From positions 1-21,812 of the IMG/VR virus record IMGVR_UViG_3300023109_002475: a DNA stretch of 21,812 bases; one strand, written 5' to 3'. The DNA is from a virus. The translations under genes were made by a program, and so were the position numbers. The notes under the pieces were generated by a model. That model was not told where the DNA came from. It made no database searches and worked only from the letters and a program-made list of their open reading frames with translations. Shown here piece after piece: positions 1 through 21,812 of this stretch. How positions within the stretch are numbered: position 1 is the stretch's first letter; every line of letters begins with the position of its first letter.

Positions 1-2828
1 ATCATGTGGTGCCGTCCGAGGATTGGGTCGGCCTCGTTCATATCGAAGTCGATGATGACCATTCGGTCGCTGGTGCTGGGTATGTTAGCGACCATCGTCA
101 TATCGAGGTGGATAGGTGAGCATCCGACCTCAGAGCGACCCATGTCGGTGATTTCGTGACCGGCAGGTGCGGACCAATCGCTGGTGACTGCTGTTGGGCT
201 CAGAGATGGGGACATTGCCAATCTCGTACCAATTCGCTCATGTGTTGGGATTGGTCTGTTGCGCCCGTAGAGCCATCCAGCAGGCTTCGTGAAGTCCCAA
301 CCGTGTGTACCAGTACCCGACTCAATGTACGACCACAGCGGGGTTGAAACACCACGCCAAGCCCACTTGTCAGGGCCACCACGGCCAGTGACTGAGGCGT
401 GTCCGTCGTCAGGGTCAAGGTCACTTCTAACCCTCCACAGTGAGTTATCGAGATTTTTCACCTCAAGCGGGTGATTGCTCCCGAAGAAGCCGCTTGCGGG
501 GACAACGACTGGTGGCTTTCCTATCGAGTTATATCGGACGCAAAGGTCGTGGCCCAGTGGTGGTGGTACTCGGAGTGAACCATCGCCGCTGGTGATGACT
601 GGGGGAGCGGAAGGAATGTCCTCGCTTGGTGTCGCACCGAGGGTCTGAATGGATATTGACCGAGGCACTGGTCGATTGCCAGCGAACTGATTCAATTGGT
701 CTTTTAATTCTCGTTCCGCGATAGTAATACGAGAGGGGTATGTGTCGTTGCGAGAGGATGCCTTGGGTACATTGGAGTCACCTTGGGACATGCCGGCCTG
801 ATAACCGGTGCCTATGCGTACCGAGGCACGCTTTCCATCAGGTAGTTGGAAGCGAGTCTTGCCGAGGATGGTATCGAATACTGGGTTTCTCGTTTCACGG
901 ACATCGGGTAGGTTGCTGGCCATGTCGGTTTCGGTAGCCTGTGGACTCATCGAGCCGTTGACCTTCTCGAAAAAGTAGGTCTGCTGACCAATCTCAGGAC
1001 CGCCGACTCGACCGGAGCACCATGTGGCCCCTGTGGTGTCGTACAGGGCAGTGGCTGGTAGTAGGTTGGGGTGTAGGTAGCAGTGAATCTCCAAGTAGTT
1101 GCCGTCTTGAGGGTCGGATGTGTCAACGATTCGGGAGACGAGCCACCATCCGTTACAGTCCATGACCTGTGTCGTCGGCGTACCATCGACATGTGAGCGA
1201 CGAGAGTCGTATCGCGTCGGCCATATCTTGCCGTTGCCCTTGCGCATATCGGTGTCGCTACCCAACACCCCTGTCACACCTTCGATGAGGATTGGCTGGC
1301 CCACGACTGGGAAGCCTTCGGTGCCGAGGTACGACTGAACATCAGCGCCAGTGTAGGTGTCGGTTATGAGGTCGGTTGGAACCTTGATGACCAAGCACTT
1401 GCTGTGCACCTTTTCTTGGTCCGGCACACCCACACCACCGTACCAATCCTTGACGCCTATTTGTGCCACTGACCTGCGTGATGGGTTTGGTGGTACCTCG
1501 AATCGCATCGGGGTAGTCGTGACGGGTGTGTGGTCAGCCAGCACTGCGTGCGTCCAATTGCTTCCCTGTGCTCGTGGTGTTATTGGCCCCTGTACGAAGT
1601 CAAAGAGAGGGTAGATGCCCGCTGGTCGCTCTCGCATCAAATCGGCGGTTGTAGAGGCATCCCCGTGACCTGCTCCGCCATTCCACTTTAGGTACATGGT
1701 GTCGGTGTTCACGCCACCCAGTGTGCGTCGAGAGTCGTAGGAATATGGGATGATGACGCCATTGTTCAGAGCGTAGGTTCCATCCTTGAGGAAGCACGCC
1801 AGCGCCTGTGCCATCCGGTACTTTGGAGCGGGTGCTTCGGACGAGTCCTGACTGAACCACACAGCCCCCTTGCCCTGACTGTCACGAGCCCAGTTCAGGT
1901 TTCGCTCGTGGTCGCCGGAGTACATATAGGTTTTCCATAGACTGTTTTCTCGTGGCGGTCGACTGATTCCACTCTTGGCAAATCCTCGGAGGCCATCGGA
2001 GTACAGCGTGCCCCTATTGACATCCGCTATGTTGCCGAACTCGATTCCACCTTGGCTTACCCCTTGATTGAGGTGCAGTTGGTTGTTATCGAGCATCATA
2101 GGCATGAAGACCGTCGCTCGGTACTTCCCAGTCGCTGGTAGGTTGGACGAAGTCACACGGTTGTCAGCACTGAAATCTTGCCATGGAAGAAGGGGTCCGT
2201 TGGCGATACCATGTGGCATCCACGCCTTCTTGTCGGAGTCTTCCATGCCGGCATTGCCGGTAGGGTTGATGTGGCGGTAGGTGTCAATGAGTTCAACCAA
2301 TTCTTGAACGGTCATAAAGACCGGATATGGCCCGTGTCGGAAGCCGTTGCCAGCCATGTTCTCGATGTATTCCTTGATGTCGACGGTGCTCCTTGTAGCA
2401 TCCCTGTTCACATCTTGATGGATGACCTCGATGGGTATGGTTCCAGCGTTGTGTGCGGCCTCGGTGTCAAATCCTTCCACGCCAAGTGACGGGGCAATCA
2501 ACATGATGACCGTTGAAGTGCCATCTGAGTGATTGATAGTGCACTTGGGGGAGAAGGTGCCGGAACCGGAGATGACGATGGTTGGCTCTGTCCCTGAGAG
2601 GTCGGACCCATCGTCCTCGATAGCCTCGACTCTGATACCTGCAACGGTGGCCTCGTCTGCAATCTCGCCTGACTGCGTCCCGAAGTTCGTTTTGAACAAC
2701 ACTGGGTCGACAGTTATGCCGAGCAGTCCATCGTCCTTGATGTACGCTGGCCACCACTTCTGTAGTTCAGCGAGGTCGCTCTTGACCCGTGAGAACTTGT
2801 GGATGGGTTGCTTCTTGAAGGACGCCAT
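1..2828 (-). CDS. Large tail/baseplate-associated protein, 3' end missing
   Basis: The minus-strand frame starting at 2828 (MASFKKQPIHKF...) has no stop down to base 1, giving at least 942 codons; the gene continues past the left edge. The start ATG overlaps the tape-measure stop by one base (TGATG), and a Shine-Dalgarno-like GGGGGT lies about 7 bases upstream. Residues about 50-140 look beta-rich and Ig-like (repeated Gly/Thr/Ser with hydrophobic alternation). The rest is rich in Trp, Tyr, Gly, Pro and Asp, as in tail-tip, baseplate or receptor-binding proteins. No transmembrane segment or enzymatic motif was recognised. Position directly after the tape measure is where distal-tail and tail-tip proteins are encoded in siphovirus-like genomes. 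The structural role is inferred from context and composition, not from a recognised family. Confidence 0.8.
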   Translation of the reverse strand, partial: MASFKKQPIHKFSRVKSDLAELQKWWPAYIKDDGLLGITVDPVLFKTNFGTQSGEIADEATVAGIRVEAIEDDGSDLSGTEPTIVISGSGTFSPKCTINHSDGTSTVIMLIAPSLGVEGFDTEAAHNAGTIPIEVIHQDVNRDATRSTVDIKEYIENMAGNGFRHGPYPVFMTVQELVELIDTYRHINPTGNAGMEDSDKKAWMPHGIANGPLLPWQDFSADNRVTSSNLPATGKYRATVFMPMMLDNNQLHLNQGVSQGGIEFGNIADVNRGTLYSDGLRGFAKSGISRPPRENSLWKTYMYSGDHERNLNWARDSQGKGAVWFSQDSSEAPAPKYRMAQALACFLKDGTYALNNGVIIPYSYDSRRTLGGVNTDTMYLKWNGGAGHGDASTTADLMRERPAGIYPLFDFVQGPITPRAQGSNWTHAVLADHTPVTTTPMRFEVPPNPSRRSVAQIGVKDWYGGVGVPDQEKVHSKCLVIKVPTDLITDTYTGADVQSYLGTEGFPVVGQPILIEGVTGVLGSDTDMRKGNGKIWPTRYDSRRSHVDGTPTTQVMDCNGWWLVSRIVDTSDPQDGNYLEIHCYLHPNLLPATALYDTTGATWCSGRVGGPEIGQQTYFFEKVNGSMSPQATETDMASNLPDVRETRNPVFDTILGKTRFQLPDGKRASVRIGTGYQAGMSQGDSNVPKASSRNDTYPSRITIAERELKDQLNQFAGNRPVPRSISIQTLGATPSEDIPSAPPVITSGDGSLRVPPPLGHDLCVRYNSIGKPPVVVPASGFFGSNHPLEVKNLDNSLWRVRSDLDPDDGHASVTGRGGPDKWAWRGVSTPLWSYIESGTGTHGWDFTKPAGWLYGRNRPIPTHERIGTRLAMSPSLSPTAVTSDWSAPAGHEITDMGRSEVGCSPIHLDMTMVANIPSTSDRMVIIDFDMNEADPILGRHHM

Positions 2829-6402: not shown

Positions 6403-7209
6403 TCATACTTCCTTGATTGCCTCGGTGGCGACTATGGTGATAAAGGGCTCTGAGAGCGTCTCTACGACGACGAACTGACCCTTGTGGTGCTTGGAGACCT
6501 TGAGAGGTGTTTCTTCGCTTCTAAGCACACCTATGAGCGTTTTGAGGGAATCGGTGAATGAGACTGTGAACTCAGGTCCACTGACCGTCGCTGTGAGCGG
6601 CGTCCACGAGCGGTTGGTCTTGCCGTTCCAGTGGCCACTGCGAGCCTCCGACTTGGGGCCCAGCGTCATAACGACATACGGTGCGTTGGCCGTGACCATC
6701 TCGCTCAGAGCCTTGCGCAGTTCGTGATTGGTCAGCAGAGCCTCGCTCGTCGCAGGTTCGTTGTCGAACATAGGGAACAGGCGCTTGCCGTCAGAGATGG
6801 GGAGGGTGTTGCGGTCAGGGATGGTCATGCAGTCGTCCTCGTCTGCCGGCATCACCTCGACGCCACCACGACCCTTGGTGCTCACCACGATGGCTTCACC
6901 AGCCGCAGTCTTGATGCGGACGACTTCGCCCTTGCCCTTGGACCTAACCATGTCCCCAAGTTCCTTGGGGTTGCAGACGAGCACACACGGCTCCTTGACC
7001 TTGTAGTCATCGAGGGGCTCGTTGTCCAGCATGACCATCAAGGTCTTGCCAGCGTTCATGGTCCAGCACGATACGCCGTCATTGGTGAAGAGGAGGCGCA
7101 GAGGGACTGCTGGAGTGTCGGTGGTGACTCGGCTCAGGAACCTCGCCAGCGACCCGCTGTTGACCTGTATATTGGCCGTGCGGGACACCTTTGAGTTCGG
7201 GGTGAGCAT
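6403..7209 (-). CDS. PCNA-like DNA sliding clamp
   Basis: From ATG 7209 the product is 268 aa, close to the roughly 250 aa of archaeal PCNA. It begins with a segment resembling the clamp N terminus (SGSLARFLSRVTTDTPAVPL), followed by FTNDGVSCWTMNAGKTLMVM, equivalent to the conserved strand-turn after the first helix. The two-domain layout and C-terminal strands (FVVVETLSEPFITIVATEAI) also fit. A trimeric clamp would tether a polymerase or nuclease to DNA. The frame is open to a GTG at 7230, but the TATA box (7231-7238) lies 25-26 bases before ATG 7209, indicating a leaderless start there. It heads an apparent operon that continues into the tail genes. Confidence 0.85.
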   Translation of the reverse strand: MLTPNSKVSRTANIQVNSGSLARFLSRVTTDTPAVPLRLLFTNDGVSCWTMNAGKTLMVMLDNEPLDDYKVKEPCVLVCNPKELGDMVRSKGKGEVVRIKTAAGEAIVVSTKGRGGVEVMPADEDDCMTIPDRNTLPISDGKRLFPMFDNEPATSEALLTNHELRKALSEMVTANAPYVVMTLGPKSEARSGHWNGKTNRSWTPLTATVSGPEFTVSFTDSLKTLIGVLRSEETPLKVSKHHKGQFVVVETLSEPFITIVATEAIKEV

Positions 7210-7660: not shown

Positions 7661-7996
7661 TCACACTTCATCGTATGCGTCAGGATAGGCGAGCCAAACC
7701 TTCTGAGGGTACTTGGTTCGGCCATCCAGTGATGCGATTCTGACTGAGCCAGCGTTGAAAAAGAGGTGAGGTTTTTTGGCGAGGTGGTTGCTGAGGCGGT
7801 TCATCTCAAACGGCTGGTTATCGAGCGTGAGTATCTCACCTGTGGCTATTGGAGTACCTTCGGGGAAGTGTGCCCCAGCCTCCAACATGGCCTTCCAAAG
7901 ACGCTTGACATTGCGCCCATCTGACTTTCCAAGGCGCCCCTTCTTTCGGGTGCCGTACTTGCTCGATGGCACTTCGTCAGACTTCTTGTTTGTCAT
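7661..7996 (-). CDS. Small basic protein, possible DNA-binding
   Basis: From ATG 7996, 111 aa; overlaps the 3' end of the nuclease gene by 20 bases. A GGAG sequence 7 bases before the ATG, inside the nuclease gene, makes this start better than the GTG at 7999. The N terminus is strongly basic (KYGTRKKGRLGKSDGRNVKR). A later segment (PFEMNRLSNHLAKKPHLFF followed by GSVRIAS) resembles a winged-helix recognition helix and wing. Cotranscription with the ATPase and nuclease suggests a role in DNA processing or regulation; this is inference. Confidence 0.7.
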   Translation of the reverse strand: MTNKKSDEVPSSKYGTRKKGRLGKSDGRNVKRLWKAMLEAGAHFPEGTPIATGEILTLDNQPFEMNRLSNHLAKKPHLFFNAGSVRIASLDGRTKYPQKVWLAYPDAYDEV

Positions 7997-9209
7997 CACC
8001 GCTCTCCTTTGCCTTGATTATCAGCATTCGCTGGGGCTTGCTTATCTGCGAACGCTTGACAGCGTCCGCGACATCATCGGGGAGAATAGGGAGGACACGG
8101 TCCACGGCGCTGTTAGACAGCGACACGATGGTCCCAAACACGGTGGCTGGGATGAGGCGTTGGACTTCGGTTGGGATGTACGAGCGTCGGGTCTGCTCTC
8201 GCCATTCGACTGACCAGTCATCGGTCTCGGCCTTGCAGTCCGCTACCTTCATGGTGCGGTCGAACACTTCGTTCTTGATATGGTCGTCGATAGCCTTCTT
8301 GCGCTTGGTCAGCATTGATGTGCTGGCCTTGATGGTCGCCAGTTCATTGAGCAGGTCGTTCAGGTCGCCGCCGAGCGTTGGAGTTAGCATGTCCCATGCA
8401 CCGTTCTGCATGAGGCTCTGCGCCTGTGGGCACAGGTCGGTGTAGGCACACCATTGACAGCCCTTGCCGATGCTCGCTGGTACCTTCATGGTGTCAGAGC
8501 CATCAACGGCGATGATTGACTGGTACTGGCCGTGTAGCCAGTCCTTGAAGGTCTCAAGGCGCTCGTCTGTCCACACAGTCGTCACGGTGCCGTGGCGCTG
8601 TAGGTCGAAGGTGAATTGGAGCGGGCGGTCAGGCCACCACTCACGAGCGACGCAGAGATATATGGCGGCTTGGACATTGTTGTCGGCCTCAGCCTGTGTT
8701 ATGTCCATGCGTTGTGTCTTGTAGTCGACGAGTTCGATGGTCCCGTCCTTATGTTCGATGATAAGGTCGATGAATCCCAGCACGGGTGTGCCGGTGCGCT
8801 GGAGGATGTGTGGTCCGACTGTTGGGTCGAACGAACCAAACATGCGCTCGACCGATTGGACACGGACTGGTTCACGACCTCGTCGGTCGAACCAGCGCTT
8901 GAGCATCCGCTTGCCGTCCTCGTACATGTCGAAGTCGACCTCACGACCGGCGCTGACCTCCTTGTAGAGGGTCATCAGGCGACCGAACGAGGGCTTGGGT
9001 GTATTGCCATCAGCATCGGGCCTACGCCACTCCTCAAGGGCGTCGTGGACATTGTTTCCAAGACGGCCTGCTTGACTGTTGTCACGGTGGTTGCCGATTT
9101 GCTTGAGGGCAACAGCGTCAGCGTTTGGCTCCTCGTAGTGGAAGTGGTACTTGAGAGAGCACTCCTGTGCAGTCTTGAGTCTCGATGCTGAGATGTACGG
9201 TACTTTCAT
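7977..9209 (-). CDS. PD-(D/E)XK nuclease with Fe-S cysteines (RecB/Cas4-like)
   Basis: A 410-aa protein with RecB/Cas4-type nuclease motifs in order: Cys17 in SASRLKTAQECSLKY, His55 in GNNVHDALEEW, Asp148 in LGFIDLIIE, Asp162 and Lys164 in ELVDYKTQ, Gln180 and a following Tyr (QAAIYL). A cysteine cluster follows at 251, 254 and 260 (CQWCAYTDLC). Together with Cys17 these are the four cysteines that bind a 4Fe-4S cluster in Cas4, AddB and related PDDEXK_1 proteins. The family cuts or resects DNA ends during replication and recombination. ATG 9209 is preceded by GAGGCG at 6-base spacing, 10 bases after the ATPase gene. The last 130 residues are helical and charged. Confidence 0.88.
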   Translation of the reverse strand: MKVPYISASRLKTAQECSLKYHFHYEEPNADAVALKQIGNHRDNSQAGRLGNNVHDALEEWRRPDADGNTPKPSFGRLMTLYKEVSAGREVDFDMYEDGKRMLKRWFDRRGREPVRVQSVERMFGSFDPTVGPHILQRTGTPVLGFIDLIIEHKDGTIELVDYKTQRMDITQAEADNNVQAAIYLCVAREWWPDRPLQFTFDLQRHGTVTTVWTDERLETFKDWLHGQYQSIIAVDGSDTMKVPASIGKGCQWCAYTDLCPQAQSLMQNGAWDMLTPTLGGDLNDLLNELATIKASTSMLTKRKKAIDDHIKNEVFDRTMKVADCKAETDDWSVEWREQTRRSYIPTEVQRLIPATVFGTIVSLSNSAVDRVLPILPDDVADAVKRSQISKPQRMLIIKAKESGDDKQEV

Positions 9210-10113: not shown

Positions 10114-10134
10114 GCACTGAACTTGCATCCCCAC

Positions 10135-10142
10135 CTATATGA
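10135..10142 (-). promoter_or_regulatory. TATA box of ATPase-nuclease operon (GTGGGG class)
   Basis: TCATATAG on the minus strand, centred 25.5 bases before ATG 10113 and followed directly by GTGGGG (10129-10134). It lies between the NUDIX stop codon and the ATPase and fixes the ATPase start. Confidence 0.85.
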
Positions 10143-10147
10143 AGGGC

Positions 10148-10687
10148 TCAGAAGAACAGAGATGCCGGACTCCAAGTGCGGAAGGGAACTCCGTCCACCA
10201 TGGTCGTGTAGGTGAATTGTTCGTGTAGGGTATCGGTGGCGATACAGTGCTCGACCCAATGAGCGAGGTGGTGGCTGATGGTTTCAGGTTCGTCTTGCAC
10301 CCATTGGCGAAGTTCACCGAGACTTATCCACTTGTAGGCGTCGTGCTCAAAGGACAAAGTGACCTCGGGTTCGGTGAAATGTGCGTCTACAAAGAGGTGG
10401 TATGCCTTCTTCTTCTTGTAGTCGTAGTCGGTGGCCATGTAGGTCGGAGAGCGGTCAAGACCAGTCTCCTCAAGGAGTTCTGTACGGGCTGTCCAGTAAA
10501 TGGTCTCGCCTTCGTCAACCTTGCCACCAGCGACTTCCCACAGGCCTTGGCATGTGTCTTCAAGAGCAGAGCGGCGGACAACGAGAATCATCGGCTTCTC
10601 ACCTCTGTATGTGGTCAATATGCCACAGGCTTGTCGGTAGTCAGGCTTCCAGTTGGGGTTGTGGTTGATGGCGTTCATATTTTTCAT
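10148..10687 (-). CDS. NUDIX hydrolase
   Basis: From ATG 10687, 179 aa. The NUDIX box is at about 55-77 (GKVDEGE ... TELLEETGL): Gly55, Glu61, Glu70, Glu73, Glu74 and Gly76 fit the consensus, but the usual Arg before the first Glu of the helix is Thr69, with an Arg one residue earlier. Typical flanking strands are present (CGILTTYRGEKPMILVVRRS; CQGLWEVAGG). The family hydrolyses nucleoside diphosphates linked to another moiety: nucleotide sanitation, dNTP control or removal of signalling nucleotides. The predicted transcript starts near 10745, so the mRNA has a leader of about 57 nt. The reading frame is also open upstream, and ATG 10678 is an alternative start. Confidence 0.85.
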   Translation of the reverse strand: MKNMNAINHNPNWKPDYRQACGILTTYRGEKPMILVVRRSALEDTCQGLWEVAGGKVDEGETIYWTARTELLEETGLDRSPTYMATDYDYKKKKAYHLFVDAHFTEPEVTLSFEHDAYKWISLGELRQWVQDEPETISHHLAHWVEHCIATDTLHEQFTYTTMVDGVPFRTWSPASLFF

Positions 10688-10691
10688 CTCT

Positions 10692-12092: not shown

Positions 12093-12139
12093 GTGTGTTC
12101 ACTTCCTGTTGGGTTGTATTCTGTCCTGTGCTCCCCCAC

Positions 12140-12147
12140 CTATATCA
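12140..12147 (-). promoter_or_regulatory. TATA box of SSB-like gene (GTGGGG class)
   Basis: TGATATAG on the minus strand, followed directly by GTGGGG (12134-12139). Predicted transcription start is near 12118, so unlike the other GTGGGG-class genes this mRNA carries a leader of about 25 nt with a ribosome binding site. Confidence 0.8.
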
Positions 12148-12157
12148 AGGAAGAGGT

Positions 12158-14149
12158 TCAAACCCCGTCCTCCAGTGCTTCAAGTTGGGCGTCGAGCATT
12201 GCTTCCCATAGGTCCTCAGTGTCTGCTACAGCGGCCTTAGACGCCGCTTGGATAGCCTGTTTGACCGTTCGCTTCTTGGTCAGGGCAAGGGTAGCAACCG
12301 AGTCGGATTCCTTGAACCAAGCATCGCCGTTGAACAGCGATTCTCGATGCTTAGAATCCTTGCCGACGATGTCCCAAAGAAGGGTGCGCTTGCCGGACGG
12401 TCGGAGGTAGGATGGGAGGAATAGAGAGCGCCAAACCTTGGAGGATTCCTTGTCGGGACAGCCGATGCCACGGAGCAGGTGCATGTCGTTGCCCTTGAGT
12501 GGGAACTGGCTTATCGGTGGCGATGATGTGGCGAGCACATCGCTGAACTCTGACACGATGGATTCGAGATTGAGGCCGGCTGATTCCACGAAGAGTGGAG
12601 CGAGTGCGTAGTCGTCCATGAGACCCGCTCGGGACTTGACGATTTTCCACGACTTCTTGCCACCGCCACGGCCACCGCCACGGCGACCGGTCTCGATGAG
12701 CCCAGCGTCTTCAAGCGTGGGCAGGTGGCGCTCTTTGAGGGCGTTCTTGCTGACTTGGAAGGCATGGATGCCCAGCCACTGGAGGATATTGTCCTCAGTC
12801 AGTGGGCGCTTGGCTTCTTCCATCTGCACGAGGTGTTGATACACCGTCCATGTGCCGTCAGGTACCCCTGAGAGGCTCGCACGGAGTACGAGGTCACAAA
12901 GGAGCAGAGCGACGACATTGTCCTCTACAGACGACAGGAGGTACTCCTGACCGTCGATGGTTTGGACAGGCCGTTGCTTCTGATGAAGAAGTGTGACTGC
13001 GTCGATGATGGAGAGCACCTTGCCGATGTCACGCTGGTGTTGAGCGTTGCGAGCAGGGAAGAAGTCGACCATGAGCGGAGCGAAGATGTTGCGCACCTTG
13101 TACCGGTTGAGCGACAGCATGGATGCTTGGAGCATCTTGAGGTCAGGATGGATTTGGAAAGTCTCAGGTCGAGCCTTGGCCAGCAGTGCGTTCCGCACCA
13201 CATCGCCGACCTTCTCGACGGTGGTATCGGGAGTCATAATCAATTGCCGTGTGATTTGCTCAGCCTCACTGGGATTGCGAGTGGTCAGTGTGATGAACGA
13301 CGGTCGTCCTCGGATGATGAAGTCACGGGTCTCGATGTCGCCTGTCAGTTCGTTCTTGACCGGTGTCTTCCACACCAGTTCGTCGTCGTCGCCGGACATG
13401 ATTGGCTTCATCTTCTTGATGAAGGCGAAGGACTCGTCCTTCTCAAGTACAACGATGCACCGTCCGTCCACATTGACGATGAAGTTCCCCTCCTCGTCCA
13501 CCTCGTCGTAGTCGTACTTGAGGGCCTCCTTAGAGGCACCAGCGAGCACCATAATCATCGACTTGGGGAAGCCGTTGCGAGCGGTCAGCGTCATGTAGGT
13601 CTTGCCGCTGGATGACTGTCCAATCATCTCAAGGTTGAGCGGGTTGTCAGTCTTGCACGACAGGAACACAAGGAAGGTGAGAAGCAGGTTCGCATCGTCA
13701 CCGACGAACGGTGTCTCACGGCTCTCGTGAAGAATCTCGTTGATGCGGTCCAGCAGGTGGCGCTGGCCGAGGAAGGTGTTGATTGTGCCTTCGCCGATAA
13801 GACCGTAGGTCGAGTCTTCGTCCACCAGCGCTTCCTTCTCAGCGTCCTTTTTGTCAGACACTGTGGCTACCACATAGGTGCCGTCCTTGAGGATGATACC
13901 AGCCCTGAGCATGTCCTTGACGAACGCTTTCTGATGGTCGGCTTCGACAGCAACCTTGCCCAATCGAGCGAGGCTGTGCTGGCTGAGAACATTGACTTTG
14001 CCGTGGGGCTCGTCGTTGACGACTGCGGAGAAATCCATGCGACCTTTGGTGGCAGAGAGGAAGGTGAGGACGACCTCGGCGTCACCCGCTTGGAACAGGA
14101 AGTCTGACGAGGATTCAGTCGATTGGTGGACGGTGAGTTCGGGGCTCAT
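12158..14149 (-). CDS. AAA+ replicative helicase-like ATPase
   Basis: A 663-aa protein with Walker A GQSSSGKT (about 177-184), a strand ending in acidic residues as Walker B (CIVVLEKDES, about 231-240) and a sensor-like strand FITLTTRN (about 285-292). The C-terminal third has a likely winged helix (about 430-505) with an unusual GRRGGGRGGGKK stretch (about 488-499). The SSSGK P-loop followed by a segment like AGASKEALKYDY resembles helicase domains of primase-helicase proteins of phages and mobile elements rather than canonical MCM. The first 150 residues may be a DNA-binding or regulatory domain; I see no primase motifs. Role inferred: viral DNA unwinding. The TATA box at 14173-14180 is 27.5 bases from ATG 14149, so the mRNA is probably leaderless. 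Confidence 0.7.
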   Translation of the reverse strand: MSPELTVHQSTESSSDFLFQAGDAEVVLTFLSATKGRMDFSAVVNDEPHGKVNVLSQHSLARLGKVAVEADHQKAFVKDMLRAGIILKDGTYVVATVSDKKDAEKEALVDEDSTYGLIGEGTINTFLGQRHLLDRINEILHESRETPFVGDDANLLLTFLVFLSCKTDNPLNLEMIGQSSSGKTYMTLTARNGFPKSMIMVLAGASKEALKYDYDEVDEEGNFIVNVDGRCIVVLEKDESFAFIKKMKPIMSGDDDELVWKTPVKNELTGDIETRDFIIRGRPSFITLTTRNPSEAEQITRQLIMTPDTTVEKVGDVVRNALLAKARPETFQIHPDLKMLQASMLSLNRYKVRNIFAPLMVDFFPARNAQHQRDIGKVLSIIDAVTLLHQKQRPVQTIDGQEYLLSSVEDNVVALLLCDLVLRASLSGVPDGTWTVYQHLVQMEEAKRPLTEDNILQWLGIHAFQVSKNALKERHLPTLEDAGLIETGRRGGGRGGGKKSWKIVKSRAGLMDDYALAPLFVESAGLNLESIVSEFSDVLATSSPPISQFPLKGNDMHLLRGIGCPDKESSKVWRSLFLPSYLRPSGKRTLLWDIVGKDSKHRESLFNGDAWFKESDSVATLALTKKRTVKQAIQAASKAAVADTEDLWEAMLDAQLEALEDGV

Positions 14150-14172
14150 GCCTCAAGTCACGGCAACCCCAC

Positions 14173-14180
14173 CATTATGA
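14173..14180 (-). promoter_or_regulatory. TATA box of AAA+ helicase-like gene (GTGGGG class)
   Basis: TCATAATG on the minus strand, followed directly by GTGGGG (14167-14172), 27.5 bases (centre) before ATG 14149. The box is slightly degenerate compared with its class. Confidence 0.7.
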
Positions 14181-14285
14181 AGGCCGCTGGTTAATTCCTT
14201 TCTTTTTATGTCCTATCATTTACATATACACAATAAATAATATGTGTGTCTATATGACCCTAAGTCAGGTTGAATCGAAAGTGGT

Positions 14286-14580: not shown

Positions 14581-14805
14581 ATGCGCAACGAAACCGCAAC
14601 CCGAAACCTGACACTAAGAGCAATGAACTTCTACGGACTGAGGCTCTCACAGTACATCGAGTATTTCTGTGTACTCAAGCACATGCCTGACGGCGAACCG
14701 TACATTTGGTTGAATGACAATGTCACCATGCAAAAGACATTCGCTGTATGGGTCAACCACGGAGACCGAAAAGAGAAGTTAATGGCCCTCTTGGCATCAA
14801 AGTGA
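14581..14805 (+). CDS. Hypothetical 74-aa protein, only plus-strand gene
   Basis: MRNETATRNLTLRAMNFYGL... is a compact, basic 74-aa protein ending in a helix (KEKLMALLASK). It contains an aromatic-rich middle (YIEYFCVLKHM, YIWLNDN, FAVWVNHGD). It does not resemble a family I know. It is credible because an excellent TATA box sits 25.5 bases before the ATG, as for other leaderless genes here. Its 3' end overlaps the end of the tail hub-like gene by 9 bases in convergent orientation. A role as an early regulator transcribed away from the helicase-like gene is possible but unsupported. Confidence 0.75.
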   Translation: MRNETATRNLTLRAMNFYGLRLSQYIEYFCVLKHMPDGEPYIWLNDNVTMQKTFAVWVNHGDRKEKLMALLASK

Positions 14806-16629
14806 TACTTCGTTGGCAAAGCGCAGTGTGGAGACGAGGTTGGGGCTTTGACGCCCTACATTCAGCGTCATCATAGCGCCGGCTGGTGACATTGTCCAAG
14901 ACACTGAGAACACCCTGTGACGGCCCGCTATGCCCGCATGCGTGGCGAACTCCATCACATCTCCGGCCATGATGTCGAAGCGCTCAGGGATGCCCTCTAC
15001 GGTGTACGATTGACGGGTCCTCCCGATGTTCTGTAGCATCAGACCTGCGAACATTTCAGCCTGTCTGACATCCCGCACGGTCTTCTCGTGGACCACCCTG
15101 TGGACTGGTCGGGTTGGGAAGTTCTGCTGGGTCGGAGACGGCACTGTCACATTGATTCCAAGTTCCTCGTTGATGACCGTGACGACATTGAAAATGTCAA
15201 GGTCTCCACTGATTCGCTCGACCGAGGTCGGGTAGAAATCCTGTGGCACATCGGTCCTTGGTAGTCGTCCGGCGACCAACGGGTACACCGTCGAATCGTC
15301 GACTTCGCGCATCTCCCGTAGGTGTATGTAGCCCTTCTCATCGGCGTAGATAACCTGTGGACGGGGTGTGTTGTTGATGAGTCCGAGAACTGATTGAACT
15401 GCGGCGAGTCGAGTCTTCCCCTTGAGGTCAAGACCAGTCGGAACGACGACCCTCGACTTGGACATAATCCGACCGATAGGCGGCGAGTATGACGACTTGG
15501 CGATAATCGACTTGATGACGCTCGATGCGTCACCAGTGATTGACGGATTTTCCAAGAGCGTCTCGTTGGTCAAGAATCCGAGCGTGTCCAAGCAGGTCAG
15601 AGTGACATCATTGGAGGTCTCCTCGATGTCGCTGATATAGCCCGTGAACACCAGTGGAGGGTTCGCCCACTGTCGTGGTGCGGTGAACACCTGCACGGTG
15701 TCTCCGATGGCCCCTGTGCCCGCCCTACGACCTGCTACGCTGGAGATTTTGATGGTCATCACCTGCGGGGTGTTCAATTTGTGAGACGACGAGATACTGA
15801 GCACGCCGTGAATCGACTGGGAACCGTTCAGAACTACAGAGGGTGCGCGAGGCGTTGCCTCATCGACGGCGATAGGCCCGTACAGATTCCTGAAGAAAAC
15901 CTGACGCGAGCGCACGAAAAACACCTTGTGCGGCCAAGCGTTTCTGAGGCCACTGAGTCTCATCTGACGAGGTCGGTTGGTGTACTGCAACCCTTCGGGA
16001 TTCCACCCACCGTCGCTGAATCCGAGGTCGCCGAGGTTGAAGGTCGGAGATGGGAGGATGGTCTGCGGGTAGTTCCCCTCGGTCGGTCCAGTGGTGAACG
16101 AGAATCCGCCTCGCGGTCCTCCGCCCCGTCGATGGATTATGTCGTACTTGTCCATGAACGGGGAACCGCCTTGGTAGTGGTAGCCGAAGCCGACGGTGTC
16201 GGGTAGCGTAGATGAGTGGAGGTGAGGGTCGAATGGACGCGGTGTGCTCAGGCTGGAGTAGCAGGTCGTGACGGTCTTGTCCAGTACCCATCCACCCACC
16301 TCGTTGGGGAATGGAATGAGGCTGAGGCCGAAGTCGGTTGGATAGTGCTGTGGCCTCTCCATGATTTCCTTGTCGGCTGGAGCGGCGTCGAGAGAAATCT
16401 CATCAGCGCTCCTCCGTACGACTTCTCGCCTCGTCTCTGCCCAGTGGCTTGATGCCCATCGAGCGATTGCCGTTCGTGGCCTTCGTGGGTCCTGCCCAAG
16501 CCGCTCTGCTTCATCGAGGAGCACCTTGGGTGGGGTGATGATGAACTCGTCGTCCTGAGTCCGCACGATGCGCTGAAAGCGCTCATTCTCATCCCCCATG
16601 CCTTGTTCAAAGCCAGCGCGGTTATTCAA
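14797..16629 (-). CDS. Tail hub/baseplate-like protein
   Basis: A protein of up to 610 aa. Residues about 270-400 show the pattern of phage tail hub proteins (gp27/gp44/late control D group): GDTVQVFTAPRQW, then PLVFTGYISDIEETSND and VTLTCLDTLGFLTNETLLEN, then helices and SVIKSIIAKSSY. The C-terminal part (DIMAGDVMEFATHAGIAGRH...RVFSVSWTMSP) also fits the final hub strands. The first 250 residues are Pro/Gly/Arg-rich and probably extended. The start is uncertain: TTG 16629 overlaps the stop of the preceding small gene, while ATG 16599 is the first ATG; neither has a clear ribosome binding site. The gene lies apart from the main tail operon. Assignment rests on pattern recognition and is moderate. 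Confidence 0.65.
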   Translation of the reverse strand: MNNRAGFEQGMGDENERFQRIVRTQDDEFIITPPKVLLDEAERLGQDPRRPRTAIARWASSHWAETRREVVRRSADEISLDAAPADKEIMERPQHYPTDFGLSLIPFPNEVGGWVLDKTVTTCYSSLSTPRPFDPHLHSSTLPDTVGFGYHYQGGSPFMDKYDIIHRRGGGPRGGFSFTTGPTEGNYPQTILPSPTFNLGDLGFSDGGWNPEGLQYTNRPRQMRLSGLRNAWPHKVFFVRSRQVFFRNLYGPIAVDEATPRAPSVVLNGSQSIHGVLSISSSHKLNTPQVMTIKISSVAGRRAGTGAIGDTVQVFTAPRQWANPPLVFTGYISDIEETSNDVTLTCLDTLGFLTNETLLENPSITGDASSVIKSIIAKSSYSPPIGRIMSKSRVVVPTGLDLKGKTRLAAVQSVLGLINNTPRPQVIYADEKGYIHLREMREVDDSTVYPLVAGRLPRTDVPQDFYPTSVERISGDLDIFNVVTVINEELGINVTVPSPTQQNFPTRPVHRVVHEKTVRDVRQAEMFAGLMLQNIGRTRQSYTVEGIPERFDIMAGDVMEFATHAGIAGRHRVFSVSWTMSPAGAMMTLNVGRQSPNLVSTLRFANEVSL

Positions 16630-16865: not shown

Positions 16866-17402
16866 TTATTGCCACCAGTAGGGAGCAGGTACGCCCTTTG
16901 TCCACTTGGCGAAGCCGACCTTGTCGCGGCGGTAGTATTCCCGATAGGCCTCGACTACCGTGTGGCGGGTCGGGTCAATCAGGTCGAGGTTCTCACCCTT
17001 GGACTGGTTCATGGCCCGTGCGAACGGGGTCTGAGGAATGTCAGGGAATCGCATTTGGATTTGTGCAGAGTTAGTCCACAGGGTGCGCATCTGCTCGTGC
17101 AGAATCGAATGGTCGTTGTCGAACCGGTCAATCATGTGCTTGGATAGCCCCACGGTGTGAAGCAGTAGCCACATCCAGTTCGCTCGGCTCTCAGACGCCC
17201 ACACCGTACATGGGTGGTGCTTGTACCCACCACGGTGGTGGGTTCCAGCCTTTGTGAGCGGCATCATGCTGGGTGAGCACCCATTGAACAGTGCTGATGC
17301 CACGAGCATCTGTATGCTCTCCTTGAACTGCGAAACGATGTGCTGGTCACACAACATGTCGGCGGCTATCAACGGGTCTCGGTCTACTACGAATATGTTC
17401 AT
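16866..17402 (-). CDS. Phage-type pyrimidine dimer DNA glycosylase-like protein
   Basis: A 178-aa protein matching, from memory, a widespread phage family often annotated as pyrimidine dimer DNA glycosylase. It opens with MNIFVVDRDP, then AADMLCDQHIVSQFKESIQML, then HHPCTVWASESRANWMWLLL, then DIPQTPFARAM, and ends with VEAYREYYRRDKVGFAKW and a Trp-rich terminus. The conserved HPC-x-W-x-ES and YR-x-YY-x-x-DK motifs are present. Repair of UV damage would suit a sunlit-water virus. I cannot confirm the catalytic residues, so the activity is a family-level inference. The TATA region (17423-17430) is about 25 bases before ATG 17402, implying a leaderless mRNA, and is followed by GTGGGG like the replication genes. 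Confidence 0.65.
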   Translation of the reverse strand: MNIFVVDRDPLIAADMLCDQHIVSQFKESIQMLVASALFNGCSPSMMPLTKAGTHHRGGYKHHPCTVWASESRANWMWLLLHTVGLSKHMIDRFDNDHSILHEQMRTLWTNSAQIQMRFPDIPQTPFARAMNQSKGENLDLIDPTRHTVVEAYREYYRRDKVGFAKWTKGVPAPYWWQ

Positions 17403-17474: not shown

Positions 17475-17494
17475 TTCAATCATCCGCATCTGAA

Positions 17495-17746
17495 TCAGCA
17501 GTTCCCATTGTCCCAGCCAAGGTCAATTTCAACGATGAAATCCTTGCTTTCAAAGTGCTCGCAGTCTTCGTTTGGGCAAATGAAAATATACTCATAAATG
17601 GAACCGTCTCGCTCGCATTGAACATATTCGGTTTCGCCACCACAGCAGTCGCATTTTGGTCCGACCGGTGTTTCGTCGTCGTATGTCATTCGTCGCAGTT
17701 CGGTCCGACTTTCCTGTGCATCTCCAAGTCCGTGTGTGTAGGTCAT
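17495..17746 (-). CDS. Small zinc-ribbon-like protein
   Basis: An 83-aa acidic protein with two cysteine pairs that could hold zinc: CDCC (Cys32 and Cys35) and CPNEDC (Cys57 and Cys62), plus Cys44 and a C-terminal Cys83. This two-knuckle arrangement is typical of small zinc ribbons in transcription factors and adaptor proteins. The mRNA is leadered: the TATA box (17783-17790) predicts a start near 17761, and AGAGGCGA lies about 7 bases before ATG 17746. The leader is almost identical to that of the 103-aa gene at 20343, and both proteins begin MTYT. Confidence 0.75.
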   Translation of the reverse strand: MTYTHGLGDAQESRTELRRMTYDDETPVGPKCDCCGGETEYVQCERDGSIYEYIFICPNEDCEHFESKDFIVEIDLGWDNGNC

Positions 17747-17751
17747 ATTTA

Positions 17752-17773
17752 TTCGCCTCTGTTCTATCGTAGT
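17752..17773 (-). repeat. Shared 22-base leader element, copy 1
   Basis: Identical to 20349-20370. It spans the region between TATA box and transcription start plus the ribosome binding site GAGGCGA. The match resumes at the start codon (ATGACCTACAC in both). Confidence 0.9.
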
Positions 17774-17782
17774 GTGTGGTCC

Positions 17783-17790
17783 TATATTAA
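17783..17790 (-). promoter_or_regulatory. TATA box of zinc protein gene
   Basis: TTAATATA on the minus strand (context TTAATATAGG), centred about 40 bases before ATG 17746, so the mRNA should carry a leader of about 14 nt. Confidence 0.75.
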
Positions 17791-17804
17791 GCCACCGGTC
17801 AAAG

Positions 17805-18200
17805 TCACTCGCCCTTGACGAATATGACTTTGTCGCCCACTCGCATGTGTGCCTCTTTCTTGCCCAGCAAGTACAGCACCATGTCTGTCATGGTGGTACT
17901 GACTGAGACGCCCTCTTCGTAGGTGCGTGGAGCGTCAACATATATGTATCGTCCATCCGCGTTCAGCGTCTTCATTTTGCGACGAGGAGCACGCTCAATC
18001 GTGTCAAATCGCAGACTGTACTCTTCGTAGTCTTCTGACCAAAAGTTGTTGCTAACGCGAACAGACAGTGTGTTTTCCCAGTAGGCCCACTTGCCTTGGT
18101 CCAATTTGAGGTAGTGCACTCCATCGTACTTCAACCAAGCACCAATTTTTGCTTTTTGCATCTGTGCTGGGTTCCATTCTCGCATGTTTTTGGCTCGCAT
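17805..18200 (-). CDS. Hypothetical 131-aa protein
   Basis: From ATG 18200, 131 aa (MRAKNMREWNPAQMQKA...). It is basic and Tyr/Trp-rich with several likely beta strands (GAWLKYDGVHYLKLDQGKWA, GRYIYVDAPRTY, RVGDKVIFVKG). No family recognised; the final strand motif resembles small SH3-like barrels, but this is weak. The open frame extends to 18221, yet the TATA box at 18222-18229 is 25.5 bases from ATG 18200, so the shorter leaderless form is preferred. Confidence 0.75.
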   Translation of the reverse strand: MRAKNMREWNPAQMQKAKIGAWLKYDGVHYLKLDQGKWAYWENTLSVRVSNNFWSEDYEEYSLRFDTIERAPRRKMKTLNADGRYIYVDAPRTYEEGVSVSTTMTDMVLYLLGKKEAHMRVGDKVIFVKGE

Positions 18201-18221
18201 GTTTAACCGTAGGGGGTTCAC

Positions 18222-18229
18222 CTATATAA
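18222..18229 (-). promoter_or_regulatory. TATA box with GAAC/CTACGG element
   Basis: TTATATAG on the minus strand, followed by GTGAACCCCCTACGG (18207-18221), similar to the elements after the TATA boxes at 7641 and 10767. Centre 25.5 bases before ATG 18200. Confidence 0.8.
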
Positions 18230-18238
18230 CAGTGCCGT

Positions 18239-19996
18239 CTATAACTGTCGCTTGAGCCACGGTGGAGCGTCCTTGATGTTGTTCCTGAACCAAGATGGGA
18301 TGAGGTGAGCGCTGTTGCGAGCGAAGCGTTGCCAGCCACCGTCGAGGATGAACAGGTGGCCCACATCGTCGGGCGTCCTGACCACGCGGCCAGCGCCTTG
18401 CACGATGGCCAGCGCCGTCTGCAATTGGTACCACTTCTGACACGGTGCGTCGCAGGTGAATCCTGCACCACACAGTTCGCCGCTGTACTTGGTAGGAGGC
18501 TCGTAGGGGCACGAGGGGGTGTCCTCGTGGACCGCTCGCCACGCCTGTTCGTCTTGCATCATTCGCTCGCCGATGACGGGGTCCTTGGTGGGTAGGTAGG
18601 GCACCTTGAGGATGCACAGCCACTCGGCTAACTTGCCCTTGAAATCGAATCCCTGCGTGACATAGGTCGAGATGAGAACGAGGTCGTCTCGGTCACTGGT
18701 GAAGAACTCATCGAGCACCTCCTTGCGTGCGCGAGGGTTGCCGTCGTGAGTCAGGACTCTGTCCTCATGTCCAGCGTCCTTGAGGCCCTGAACAATCTCC
18801 TTGCGAATGGCGTGGCTATGCGGCAGAATAACCCCTCGCTTGTTGGGGAACTGGCGCATGATGGCGTCGATTGCCTTGACCTGCTTCGGCAGTGTGAACT
18901 TGCGCTTGCCCCATGACATGGAGCCACAGGGGGCGTAGTGGACATTGAAGTTCTGAGACGGGAATGGCGACTCGGTGATGTTGATGTAGAGCGTCTTTTG
19001 CCCCTCCAGCCCAAGGCCGTGGAGGAAGGTGTCGATGTCGAGAATGGTAGCAGAGAGCATGATGCGCTTCTTGCTCACCGCCTCGATGATTTCAGCGGCG
19101 TACTGGCGCACCCGAATCGGCTTGAGGATGAGGTAGTGGCCCCACTTGTTGTTCTCGTACGAGATGTGGACATTGGAGGGCTTGTGTAGGATTTCAACGG
19201 CAGTCTCCATCTTGCTGACAGCCTCTCTAATCCGCTCCACCTCCTTCTCGGTGGTGCCCATGTTGAGGTCTGCCTCGGCCTTGCTGAGGGACTTGCGTGC
19301 CACCTCAATCCGCTCCTTCATCTCCTGTCTCCAGTCTCGTGGCGTCAGGTGGTTCGGGAACCGCTCCTTGCCAAAGACGGACTGCCACTCCTTGGCTGAC
19401 AGCCGCACCTCCAGTAGGTCGTGAATGAATCCCTCAAGGTCGTGCGCCTCGTCTATGATGGCGAACTCGCGCTGGTTGAAGTTCGTGTAGCCCTGCACGG
19501 CTCGGAAGAGGTACGCTGGGTTAGAGAGTGTCAGGCGTGCATCCTCAGCCTCGAATCGTTGCTCGTAGTACCCACAGGGGTCTCCACCGTCTTCCTTGCG
19601 CTTAGCGTGCTTGCATGAGCCGGCTTTGGACCAACACGGAGCGCCCTTGGCGGTACCGTTTCGGACCCAGCAGTCGAAGTTCGACCTGCCACGCACCTCG
19701 GACAATTTGTGCCCGTAGTCGGCCTTGTACTGGTCGATAAGGCCAAGGCTCGGAGTCAGCAGGTAGGCTGACTGGAATCGGTTCTGCACCGTCATGGCGA
19801 GGGCTGATTTGCCGATGCCGGTTGGTGCTTGGATGACGATGTTGTCGAAGTCGTCATTTTCCATGGCCCAATACGCTACAGAGAGCGCTTCGGCTTGGTA
19901 CTTGCGTGGAGACGGCATCGGGAAGTCATCCCGAATGTCGTCCCACATGTCCGGCAGGCTGGCCTTGGACGGGATGTTGATACGCACTACTGCCAT
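18239..19996 (-). CDS. XPD/DinG-like Fe-S superfamily 2 DNA helicase
   Basis: From ATG 19996, 585 aa. Motif I is APTGIGKS (about 57-64) and motif II is DEAH (182-185). Between them four cysteines, at about 109, 121, 128 and 141, match the 4Fe-4S cluster of XPD, DinG and FANCJ helicases. The C-terminal helicase domain has RGVILPHSHAIRKEIVQGL, LISTYVTQGFDFKG (motif V) and IVQGAGRVVRTPDDVG (motif VI). Such enzymes unwind DNA 5' to 3' in repair and replication. A second cysteine group near the end (LCGAGFTCDAPCQKW) is noteworthy. The TATA box (20019-20026) lies 26.5 bases before this ATG; the longer open frame to 20041 includes the promoter and is rejected. It appears to be transcribed alone. Confidence 0.9.
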   Translation of the reverse strand: MAVVRINIPSKASLPDMWDDIRDDFPMPSPRKYQAEALSVAYWAMENDDFDNIVIQAPTGIGKSALAMTVQNRFQSAYLLTPSLGLIDQYKADYGHKLSEVRGRSNFDCWVRNGTAKGAPCWSKAGSCKHAKRKEDGGDPCGYYEQRFEAEDARLTLSNPAYLFRAVQGYTNFNQREFAIIDEAHDLEGFIHDLLEVRLSAKEWQSVFGKERFPNHLTPRDWRQEMKERIEVARKSLSKAEADLNMGTTEKEVERIREAVSKMETAVEILHKPSNVHISYENNKWGHYLILKPIRVRQYAAEIIEAVSKKRIMLSATILDIDTFLHGLGLEGQKTLYINITESPFPSQNFNVHYAPCGSMSWGKRKFTLPKQVKAIDAIMRQFPNKRGVILPHSHAIRKEIVQGLKDAGHEDRVLTHDGNPRARKEVLDEFFTSDRDDLVLISTYVTQGFDFKGKLAEWLCILKVPYLPTKDPVIGERMMQDEQAWRAVHEDTPSCPYEPPTKYSGELCGAGFTCDAPCQKWYQLQTALAIVQGAGRVVRTPDDVGHLFILDGGWQRFARNSAHLIPSWFRNNIKDAPPWLKRQL

Positions 19997-20018
19997 GCTT
20001 CCATCAACCCCGCCCCAC

Positions 20019-20026
20019 CTATATGA
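20019..20026 (-). promoter_or_regulatory. TATA box of XPD/DinG-like helicase (GTGGGG class)
   Basis: TCATATAG on the minus strand, same octamer as at the ATPase operon (10135-10142), followed directly by GTGGGG (20013-20018). Centre 26.5 bases before ATG 19996. Confidence 0.85.
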
Positions 20027-20031
20027 GGGGC

Positions 20032-20343
20032 TCACCAGCACCCGTTGCTCATGGTGTAGTTCATCAAGTCGTCGCCGCCGTATGGCTCGTTGCGAATGTT
20101 TCGCCAGTCGTCTTCTTCACGCTGTGCTCGGAGTTCTGCGTCGGTAGGTAGGTCAGCCATTCGCTCTGCGATTTGGTCTCGTTGTGCGAGGCAGTCTTCT
20201 GCAATTGCTCGGCAAGCGGTTCGGACTGATTGGTCGACAGTCGCCAATCCAGTGTCGAGTGAGTCCATGATTTCAGCGGCCTGCGCTTCAAGGGATTCAA
20301 TTGCGGTTTGTGCTTGTTCTTGGGTTTTCGGGGTGTAGGTCAT
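20032..20343 (-). CDS. Hypothetical 103-aa coiled-coil protein
   Basis: From ATG 20343, 103 aa. Residues about 5-80 are helical and rich in Ala, Gln, Glu and Asp with a heptad-like pattern (AQTAIESLEAQAAEIMDSLD, AIAEDCLAQRDQIAERMADL), so a coiled coil is likely. The C terminus is short and polar (DLMNYTMSNGCW). No family recognised. The start is fixed by the TATA box (20379-20386), predicting transcription from about 20357, and by AGAGGCGA before the ATG. The leader is nearly identical to that of the zinc protein gene at 17746. Confidence 0.75.
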   Translation of the reverse strand: MTYTPKTQEQAQTAIESLEAQAAEIMDSLDTGLATVDQSVRTACRAIAEDCLAQRDQIAERMADLPTDAELRAQREEDDWRNIRNEPYGGDDLMNYTMSNGCW

Positions 20344-20348
20344 CTTTG

Positions 20349-20370
20349 TTCGCCTCTGTTCTATCGTAGT
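20349..20370 (-). repeat. Shared 22-base leader element, copy 2
   Basis: Exact copy of 17752-17773, in the same place between TATA box and start codon. The TATA boxes and coding sequences otherwise differ. Confidence 0.9.
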
Positions 20371-20378
20371 AGGCGCCC

Positions 20379-20386
20379 CTATATAA
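20379..20386 (-). promoter_or_regulatory. TATA box of 103-aa coiled-coil gene
   Basis: TTATATAG on the minus strand, centred 39.5 bases before ATG 20343, so the mRNA should carry a short leader with the ribosome binding site. Confidence 0.8.
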
Positions 20387-20405
20387 GGGTGCCGATGATA
20401 GATAC

Positions 20406-21812
20406 TCAAAGTGGCCATCCAGCGATACCTGCACCACTGGTCTCACCCTCGCCGACGGTGGTGAATGAACCACCTGCGTACGGGAAGTAGAGCCTCGATG
20501 CACCATGAGGACTGGTCTGCCATGACGACTCGTTGGTCATCCACTGCAAATCCAGTTCGCCAGCAGAGAAGCCCCAAAACCGCTGATACCGCAGTTGAGG
20601 GTTGGTGTGGGTGAAGTCCTCTTGACCGCTCAGAGATTGTGCTGAGCCGACTGGTGTCCATCCTGTAGTTGCGTGGTAGGTCATCGACGGGACTGAGAGC
20701 CAGCGGATGTTGACCGACCGGATGACTTCGTCAGACTCGCTCGGGTCTTGGCTGAACTCAAAGGTCGGCATCCACACTTCCATGAAGTGGGTAATTGGTC
20801 CCGATAGTGGTGTGAGATTCGTGCCACCGGTAGGCCATTCGTAGTTCAATGGCACAGGTATCGGGTCATACCCACCGTCCACGGTTAGCCCCGCTGGTGG
20901 ACTCTGAGTATCGTCGTTCGCCGGCGTTGCACCCCACTGGAGTGGAGCGATAGTAGACTCGGTCACACCATCTCGGTAGACTCGTCCTGCGTACACCGAC
21001 TGGATGTTGCCGACGCCGGATAAACGGAAGCCAAGCACCATGTGAATCTCACCCTTGCCATTGGTGGTCATCGTGATGTGCTTGTAGTCGGGTCGGACCA
21101 TGATGTTCTTTGGAATGAACAGAGCCTTGGTGACTCCGAGGCCATTTGCATCAGTTCGTTGGTCGATGAGCGGTCTACTCGGATTGAACGAATTGACCAG
21201 CGTGGTGCGCCCGTTATCGGACTTGATAACGGTGACGAACGACCGGTCCCTTTCGTCGATGACAGCGTCGTAGTAGATGACTCCCGAAGCGGGGTACTGA
21301 GAGGCATTTTGAACACCCACACAGTGCATGGCATTCGCGTGGTTGAATGTGAATCGACCGCTGGGGTCCAAGCCACCTGCGACCGAGCGGCCAGTGTTGA
21401 CATAGATGGCGGCGTTGGCCCTGTCACCGAACACTGCGGAGTCGGCGAGCATGGAGCCTCGGTAGTAGACGATTGGTACATTCCCACCCGTTAAGCACAC
21501 CTTGGGGGCATCACAGTGTCTAACGGCATGACTTGTACCGTCAGCGGCGTTCTCGGACGCTGTAGGGGTGCTACTGACGCTCTTGTTGACCTTGCTCCAT
21601 CGGGTGTCAAGCCAGTCGGCTGGGTCGTTGACAAAAGCCGGCATTGGTGTCCAATCCTCGCCGGCCAATTTGGTCGTGTAGATGATGTGTGACTGGTCTG
21701 CGACCATGCGGCATGCCAAGTGAAGGCGGTCGTTGCCGTCGCAGACGAGGGATGGTTGTCGAAGGTCGTACCCCGAAGCGCTCACAGCCACTGCCGTGTG
21801 TTGGCTCCAGTC
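20406..21812 (-). CDS. Tail fibre or receptor-binding-like protein, 5' end missing
   Basis: The frame is open to the right edge, giving 468 visible codons before the stop at 20406; the GTG at 21791 is an internal codon, since the same frame continues upstream (DWSQHTAVAVSASG...). Segments such as LVCDGNDRLHLACRM...IIYTTKLAGEDW and TTNGKGEIHMVLGFR...GNIQSVYAGRVYRDG resemble sialidase/BNR-type beta-propeller repeats (Asp-box-like turns, then His-hydrophobic strands). The remainder is Gly, Asn, Ser and Trp-rich, typical of adhesins. I infer a tail fibre or host-recognition protein. The match is by pattern only; a virion glycosidase is an alternative. It has no close tail-gene neighbour. Confidence 0.7.
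   Translation of the reverse strand, partial: DWSQHTAVAVSASGYDLRQPSLVCDGNDRLHLACRMVADQSHIIYTTKLAGEDWTPMPAFVNDPADWLDTRWSKVNKSVSSTPTASENAADGTSHAVRHCDAPKVCLTGGNVPIVYYRGSMLADSAVFGDRANAAIYVNTGRSVAGGLDPSGRFTFNHANAMHCVGVQNASQYPASGVIYYDAVIDERDRSFVTVIKSDNGRTTLVNSFNPSRPLIDQRTDANGLGVTKALFIPKNIMVRPDYKHITMTTNGKGEIHMVLGFRLSGVGNIQSVYAGRVYRDGVTESTIAPLQWGATPANDDTQSPPAGLTVDGGYDPIPVPLNYEWPTGGTNLTPLSGPITHFMEVWMPTFEFSQDPSESDEVIRSVNIRWLSVPSMTYHATTGWTPVGSAQSLSGQEDFTHTNPQLRYQRFWGFSAGELDLQWMTNESSWQTSPHGASRLYFPYAGGSFTTVGEGETSGAGIAGWPL

Follow-up and report, generated by a model that had tools for sequence, protein, structure and literature searches.

Extensive absence of restriction sites from the genomes of a marine family of predicted archaeal head-tailed viruses

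The stretch of DNA considered here (the window) is the complete IMG/VR virus record IMGVR_UViG_3300023109_002475, of 21,812 bp, with a GC content of 55.8% and zero N, and its genes point to a fragment of a head-tailed virus of Archaea (archaeal Caudoviricetes) with a genome of approximately 80 kb. Many short words, most of them recognition sites of known restriction enzymes, are entirely missing from genomes of this family, and we consider it highly probable that a diversity of host restriction systems has led to the purging of restriction sites from these genomes. What stands out is how many motifs are kept at zero simultaneously.

Words missing from the window and its relatives

By exact count, GATC, AGCT, ACGT and CTAG occur on neither strand of the window, versus 87, 76, 77 and 36 copies, respectively, expected from a maximal-order Markov model, and versus 68±6, 62±7, 50±4 and 28±4 expected when synonymous codons are permuted within genes, with the lowest counts over 60 such shuffles being 56, 47, 39 and 21. 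As the codon shuffle preserves both the proteins and the codon usage, the missing tetramers are not a by-product of amino-acid content. These four absences had been claimed in a preliminary description of this DNA, made from the sequence alone, and they are borne out, as is its remark that other palindromes are common (TCGA, 144; GTAC, 94; CATG, 131; GGCC, 99). Its view of the CTAG absence as weaker evidence does not hold, this absence being significant at an expectation of 28-36, and its list of four words was incomplete. Further sites with zero counts (codon-shuffle expectation in parentheses) are CCNGG (64.5), GCWGC (38), CCAGA/TCTGG (46), AAACT/AGTTT (16), RAATTY (8.7), CTCGAG (8.5), CGGCCG (9.5) and CCGCGG (6.7), and two more are heavily depleted, GTAAG/CTTAC (2 versus 28) and CGCG (25 versus 80). 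For 6-mers, the maximal-order Markov model gives small expectations, and a lone 6-mer absence at an expectation of about 8-10 is weak; the enrichment test presented below pools 6-mers. The window by itself supports approximately 10 avoided sites, and the bigger totals that follow apply to its relatives.

Relatives were recovered from IMG/VR through searches with the helicase (23 loci) and the capsid protein (80 loci), resulting in a family set of 94 loci and 1.10 Mb, with GC contents of 0.38-0.64. AGCT is observed once in this set, versus 3,580 expected, and GATC 97 times, versus 4,238 expected, with a zero count in 89 of the 94 loci. Among loci with at least 8 expected copies of the respective site, zero counts are found for ACGT in 55/86, CTAG in 54/84, GTAC in 36/79, CCGG in 25/89, CGCG in 24/79 and TCGA in 21/93, and GGWCC is missing from some relatives as well. 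Each of the six near-complete relatives (78-83 kb, making the window about a quarter of a genome) is missing 30-60 distinct 4-6-mers, about 85% of the missing words being known restriction sites; examples from one relative, G311, are TCGA (0/598, observed/expected) and GATC (0/421). The expected sites missing sum to 1,300 to 5,100 per near-complete genome, an upper figure, as overlapping words are counted repeatedly.

Restriction sites among the missing words, their turnover, and controls

Nearly all palindromes are known restriction sites, so that palindromes present a weak test of whether the missing words are such sites, and asymmetric words present a fair one. With the REBASE copy in Biopython as the reference, 33 of the 233 known asymmetric 6-mer sites are missing from one or more of nine large genomes, versus 17 of the 1,730 other asymmetric 6-mers (odds ratio 16.6, p 6e-20), and among asymmetric 5-mers the figures are 17 of 68 known sites versus 13 of 436 others (odds ratio 10.8, p 7e-9). 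No word is counted more than once, and thus kinship among the genomes does not inflate the enrichment; a pooled version of the test agrees. Sites of BciVI, BseRI, BspCNI, AcuI, BbsI, BsrDI and BtgZI, all of which we take to be Type IIS or IIG-like enzymes, are among the missing words, and CTGAAG, GAGGAG and CTCAG are presumably Type IIG or IIS-like sites, the two enzyme classes not being distinguishable from sequence for the asymmetric losses.

The sets of missing words differ among lineages. On a tree of 49 capsid proteins, AGCT is missing in 49/49 loci, and GATC is missing in 46/49, with a single regain in one clade (L284/L285/L333), and the other sites have turned over repeatedly, with minimum numbers of changes of 8 for GTAC, 7 each for ACGT, GCAGC, GTAGA and CTCAG, 5 for CGCG, 4 each for CCGG and TCGA, and 3 for CTAG; these counts assume that a one-protein tree represents the genome, and recombination would alter them. 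Such repeated gain and loss fits shifting exposure to different enzymes, not a fixed composition bias. The preliminary description had offered several restriction systems or one broad defence. The former stands, if understated given the 30-60 words missing in relatives, and the lineage-specific fingerprints speak against the latter.

As controls, pelagiphages and Poseidoniales genomes are free of comparable losses. In 80 pelagiphage loci (L185-L264), GATC and AGCT are present at 0.97 and 1.07 of expectation, respectively, and some of these loci share sample ids with contigs of the family (e.g., 3300021960, 3300025070, 3300017968). Phage lambda has one missing word, and four Poseidoniales genome samples have none. 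A 50-kb sequence of halovirus HF2, run through the same pipeline, has 37 missing words, of which 35 are known sites, including GCWGC, CCWGG and GGWCC, which means that the method recovers a phenomenon already described (PMC7230728), with a breadth in HF2 exceeding the published palindrome lists. The pelagiphage loci also present an observation of their own, of GGCC at 0 versus 243 expected in 679 kb, with GCGC at 21/357 and CGCG at 16/139, a possible separate avoidance signal in SAR11 phages.

Two explanations can be judged directly from these data. An assembly, library or sequencing artefact, such as digestion in library preparation, could be imagined since every sequence is metagenomic; however, the absences come from many independent metagenomes with differing missing sets, and pelagiphage contigs of some of the same sample ids are normal, which refutes this explanation and leaves it a practically negligible probability. 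Alternatively, the composition of the host, or a bias in its mutation or repair, may make these words rare, the virus simply following. Poseidoniales stretches, from the proposed hosts (see below), are indeed mildly depleted (GATC at 0.30-0.57 and AGCT at 0.33-0.67 of expectation), but the sampled Poseidoniales genomes are without any missing word, which refutes host composition for this group; in addition, the zeros persist over a GC range of 0.38-0.64, the losses extend to non-palindromic restriction sites, and the missing set differs among close relatives. We thus regard this explanation as very improbable. With known sites enriched, with sets specific to lineages, and with hosts and other phages showing no comparable loss, the earlier proposal that palindromes were lost in response to host restriction is supported, and we infer that restriction has been the selective agent.

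The virus and its probable hosts

Nearly all genes of the window are oriented on the minus strand. The assigned features are as follows.

3-2831, minus strand: large protein, 943 amino acids within the window and truncated by its end, about 1,720 amino acids in relatives (open reading frame calls)
2828-5170, minus strand: tail tape measure protein (PHROG 1533, E 7e-46; PF10145, E 4e-33)
6403-7209, minus strand: sliding clamp (PCNA-like), archaeal type (profile of 4 homologues against 3aix_B, an archaeal sliding clamp chain, E 2.8e-5)
7977-9209, minus strand: PD-(D/E)XK nuclease, RecB/Cas4-like exonuclease (PF12705, E 3e-22; PHROG 69)
10148-10690, minus strand: NUDIX hydrolase (PF00293, E 8e-17), the start at 10690 being our choice
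14797-16629, minus strand: conserved 610-amino-acid protein with no assigned function, kept in relatives (open reading frame calls)
16866-17402, minus strand: pyrimidine-dimer DNA glycosylase-like protein (PHROG 624)
18239-20041, minus strand: DNA helicase (PHROG 2488, E 1e-79; PF13307), the query that found 23 relatives
10129-10157, 12134-12162, 14167-14195 and 20013-20041; 17736-17810 and 20333-20407: repeated upstream elements with TATATAGG and a TGGGG core

The large protein at 3-2831 has no Pfam match and, from its position downstream of the tape measure gene, is probably a virion or tail protein; the 610-amino-acid protein matches no family in PHROG or Pfam. The boxes upstream of several genes, TATATAGG first and then the TGGGG core, probably represent a promoter motif of the virus, and we presume that they are of the kind expected for archaeal promoters. 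The tape measure gene in the window, along with portal and terminase genes in relatives, indicates a tailed virus, and the replication genes are of archaeal type, represented by the sliding clamp in the window and, in relatives, by a family-B DNA polymerase (PolB), an ERCC4 domain (an ERCC4-type nuclease in G011) and a clamp-loader (RFC) small subunit whose nearest matches in the phage collection are in haloarchaeal viruses. Polymerase matches in this collection are at 22-24% identity, and the helicase, tape measure, capsid and a 663-amino-acid protein have only distant or zero matches there. As an aside, collagen-like triple-helix repeats are found in a structural protein of two relatives, G012 and G011 (L030:5901-8243, L026:19597-20000).

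Genes for C5-cytosine and N4/N6 DNA methyltransferases are present in some relatives, with one or two in each such genome (L030:9002-9904 (+); G004:30950-32363; G316:77170-80337), and no D12 methyltransferases are found among 46 family contigs. The preliminary statement that no methyltransferase is encoded is thus correct for the window, a fragment, but should not be carried over to the whole virus, given that relatives have genomes of approximately 80 kb and that some of them encode such enzymes. As methylation is the other standard answer to restriction, we count these genes in favour of restriction as the cause of the losses. An attempt to pair the viral methyltransferases with retained sites such as CCGG leads us to propose no specificity, as the cases disagree: G012, G316, G317, G327 and G330 retain CCGG, and G004 and G326 do not.

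The hosts are probably Poseidoniales (Marine Group II), for which a group 16S probe yielded 67 loci. Two contigs binned with Poseidoniales genomes are relevant. One, L174, is a 5.5-kb viral-type contig with zero GATC, AGCT, ACGT, CTAG and TCGA, and its helicase is about 35% identical to the window helicase. The other, contig 2 of G263 (106,262 bp, pieces L379-L381, one of which contains masked N), encodes portal, terminase-like and protease-like genes, and lacks AGCT (0/90), GCAGC (0/40), CCAGG (0/33) and GTAGA (0/33, in two pieces), with GATC and CTAG retained. Its portal is only about 20% identical to that of the window's family, and it is apparently a separate large virus purged of AGCT, GCWGC, CCWGG and GTAGA. 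Other contigs of these bins have normal word counts. The most telling shared item is GTAGA, which has no enzyme in the REBASE copy used and is missing in both virus groups. Binning with a Poseidoniales genome is, of course, no proof of infection.

The restriction and methyltransferase genes of Poseidoniales are unevenly distributed. PF01555 is detected in 111/194 genomes, including most of the larger ones, largely as one conserved gene (e.g., L119:1225-2211), suggesting an order-wide housekeeping methylation mark, and PF00145 (25/194) and PF02086 (27/194) are patchy. Type II systems do occur in this group: in one genome a C5 methyltransferase gene adjoins genes for Eco47II-family and TdeIII-family endonucleases (GG-type sites), and another genome encodes a BglII-family endonuclease. 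Adjacent candidate methyltransferase-endonuclease pairs lie, for example, on G016 contig 3 and G159 contig 40. With methyltransferases this patchy, a single host would not possess dozens of systems, and a virus lineage would have to average over many host strains. Since species-representative bins lose strain-specific genes, the true repertoire is presumably larger than the one seen.

Purging by host restriction, its rivals, and what it means

How might so many words be kept at zero? Each remaining site would represent a chance of cleavage upon entry into a cell with the matching enzyme, so that site-free mutants would be favoured until zero sites are left, and newly arising sites would then be removed, mostly via synonymous changes. 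By our own reasoning, at ordinary mutation rates a new site would be rare per genome per generation, and modest selection would be enough to maintain zero. Exposure to many host strains carrying different Type II restriction-modification systems would leave each lineage without dozens of sites, the result being a near-universal loss of the core words AGCT and GATC, together with accessory losses that come and go among lineages.

A number of observations weigh against purging by host restriction. Thirty missing asymmetric words, among them GTAGA/TCTAC, AGTTG/CAACT, CGTCC/GGACG, GCAGGA/TCCTGC and ACATCC/GGATGT, are without any enzyme in the REBASE copy used, and further words without a known enzyme, such as TTGCAA, are missing too. 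The host assignment is based on archaeal-type replication genes, the shared fingerprint and binning, with no CRISPR match or cultured pair; among 293 Poseidoniales genomes the window helicase has just two weak matches and no close one, one of the two leading to L174, and it has no match among genome contigs, nor has the L174 helicase a match in IMG/VR. Host enzymes for AGCT, ACGT and CTAG were not identified, and the DpnII family (GATC) is found in 0/194 Poseidoniales genomes. Finally, the patchy methyltransferases explain the lineage-specific losses better than they do the near-universal losses of AGCT and GATC.

The lack of DpnII-family enzymes would speak for a loss of the core words to an order-wide defence of a non-classical kind, phosphorothioation-based or involving an unknown nuclease, with classical restriction responsible for the accessory set only. 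The constancy of the core on the capsid tree agrees with this, and archaea are known to possess a phosphorothioation-based antiviral system that modifies GATC (cited in PMC7230728). On the other hand, a search for a single family could overlook further Type II enzymes specific for GATC or AGCT. We consider such a core defence unlikely. A broader proposition is that the restriction repertoire of uncultured Poseidoniales can be read, as in a negative, from the words that these viruses avoid, the words without enzymes marking undiscovered specificities and the AGCT loss marking an undescribed order-wide defence; this we offer tentatively, as possible rather than probable.

Another source of cleavage could be the virus itself, if it encoded site-specific nucleases for the degradation of host DNA and no methyltransferase to match them, so that its genome would have to avoid its own cut sites. 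In agreement with this, AGCT is lost from practically every family member, a constancy greater than patchy host systems would lead one to expect, and nuclease genes do exist (the PD-(D/E)XK gene of the window and the ERCC4-type gene of G011). However, 30-60 missing words per genome exceed any plausible number of nucleases, the nucleases observed have their matches in exonuclease and repair families, the window's PD-(D/E)XK protein being no recognized restriction enzyme, and the almost unrelated virus binned with Poseidoniales has the AGCT, GCWGC, CCWGG and GTAGA absences in common. On these grounds we reject the idea that one viral nuclease is the only cause, and viral nucleases in general are a highly unlikely explanation.

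Purging by host restriction has precedents. In haloviruses of the HF1 group (Hafunaviridae; HF1, HF2, Serpecor1, Hardycor2), CTAG and GATC are wholly missing, which has been attributed to host restriction, along with many 6-mer palindromes, and AGCT is missing also in HRTV-7; palindromes only were examined in that study (PMC7230728). Both groups are archaeal tailed viruses with restriction-site loss, but they are different virus families, the window's family being marine, with AGCT lost universally and ACGT usually, while HF2 has normal AGCT (207/227) and ACGT (243/279). No close kinship to Hafunaviridae was found, as all helicase matches in the phage collection are below 60% identity, the best among the matches listed being at about 26%. 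Evasion of restriction through self-methylation or motif purging has been described for archaeal tailed viruses (Liu et al., 2021; PMC8651126), where the motif example, in the passages concerned with restriction, is GATC along with a phiCh1-like Dam methylase, and a breadth of 30-60 words, many of them asymmetric, is not described in these passages. Site elimination in prokaryotic viruses, according to Rusinov et al. (2018; PMC6286503), is concentrated on orthodox Type II systems, with elimination in 7.1% of Type II (site, genome) pairs, in less than 0.5% for other types and in none for Type IIG; in contrast to that set, the window's family has many asymmetric sites at zero, CTGAAG, GAGGAG and CTCAG included. 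By description only, the family also resembles the magroviruses/Satyavativiridae, marine archaeal tailed viruses of about 80-100 kb with Poseidoniales as the predicted host (PMC13108676), in its marine habitat, size of about 80 kb and predicted host.

Motif purging in archaeal tailed viruses (PMC8651126, PMC7230728) and site avoidance in phages (PMC6286503) are thus, in the accounts cited, already published, and what is new is a marine family in which the core differs (AGCT) and the accessory loss is very broad, asymmetric sites included. Extreme purging of restriction sites, described earlier for haloarchaeal viruses, is hereby extended to asymmetric sites and to a virus family that is abundant in the sea. 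The coding constraint is large, as 7.4% of single-base substitutions in the window would give rise to one of the four tetramers, and 12.4% any of the twelve avoided motifs considered. Viral sequence alone can report on the restriction systems of uncultured hosts, and the avoidance fingerprint may help in assigning viruses to their hosts.
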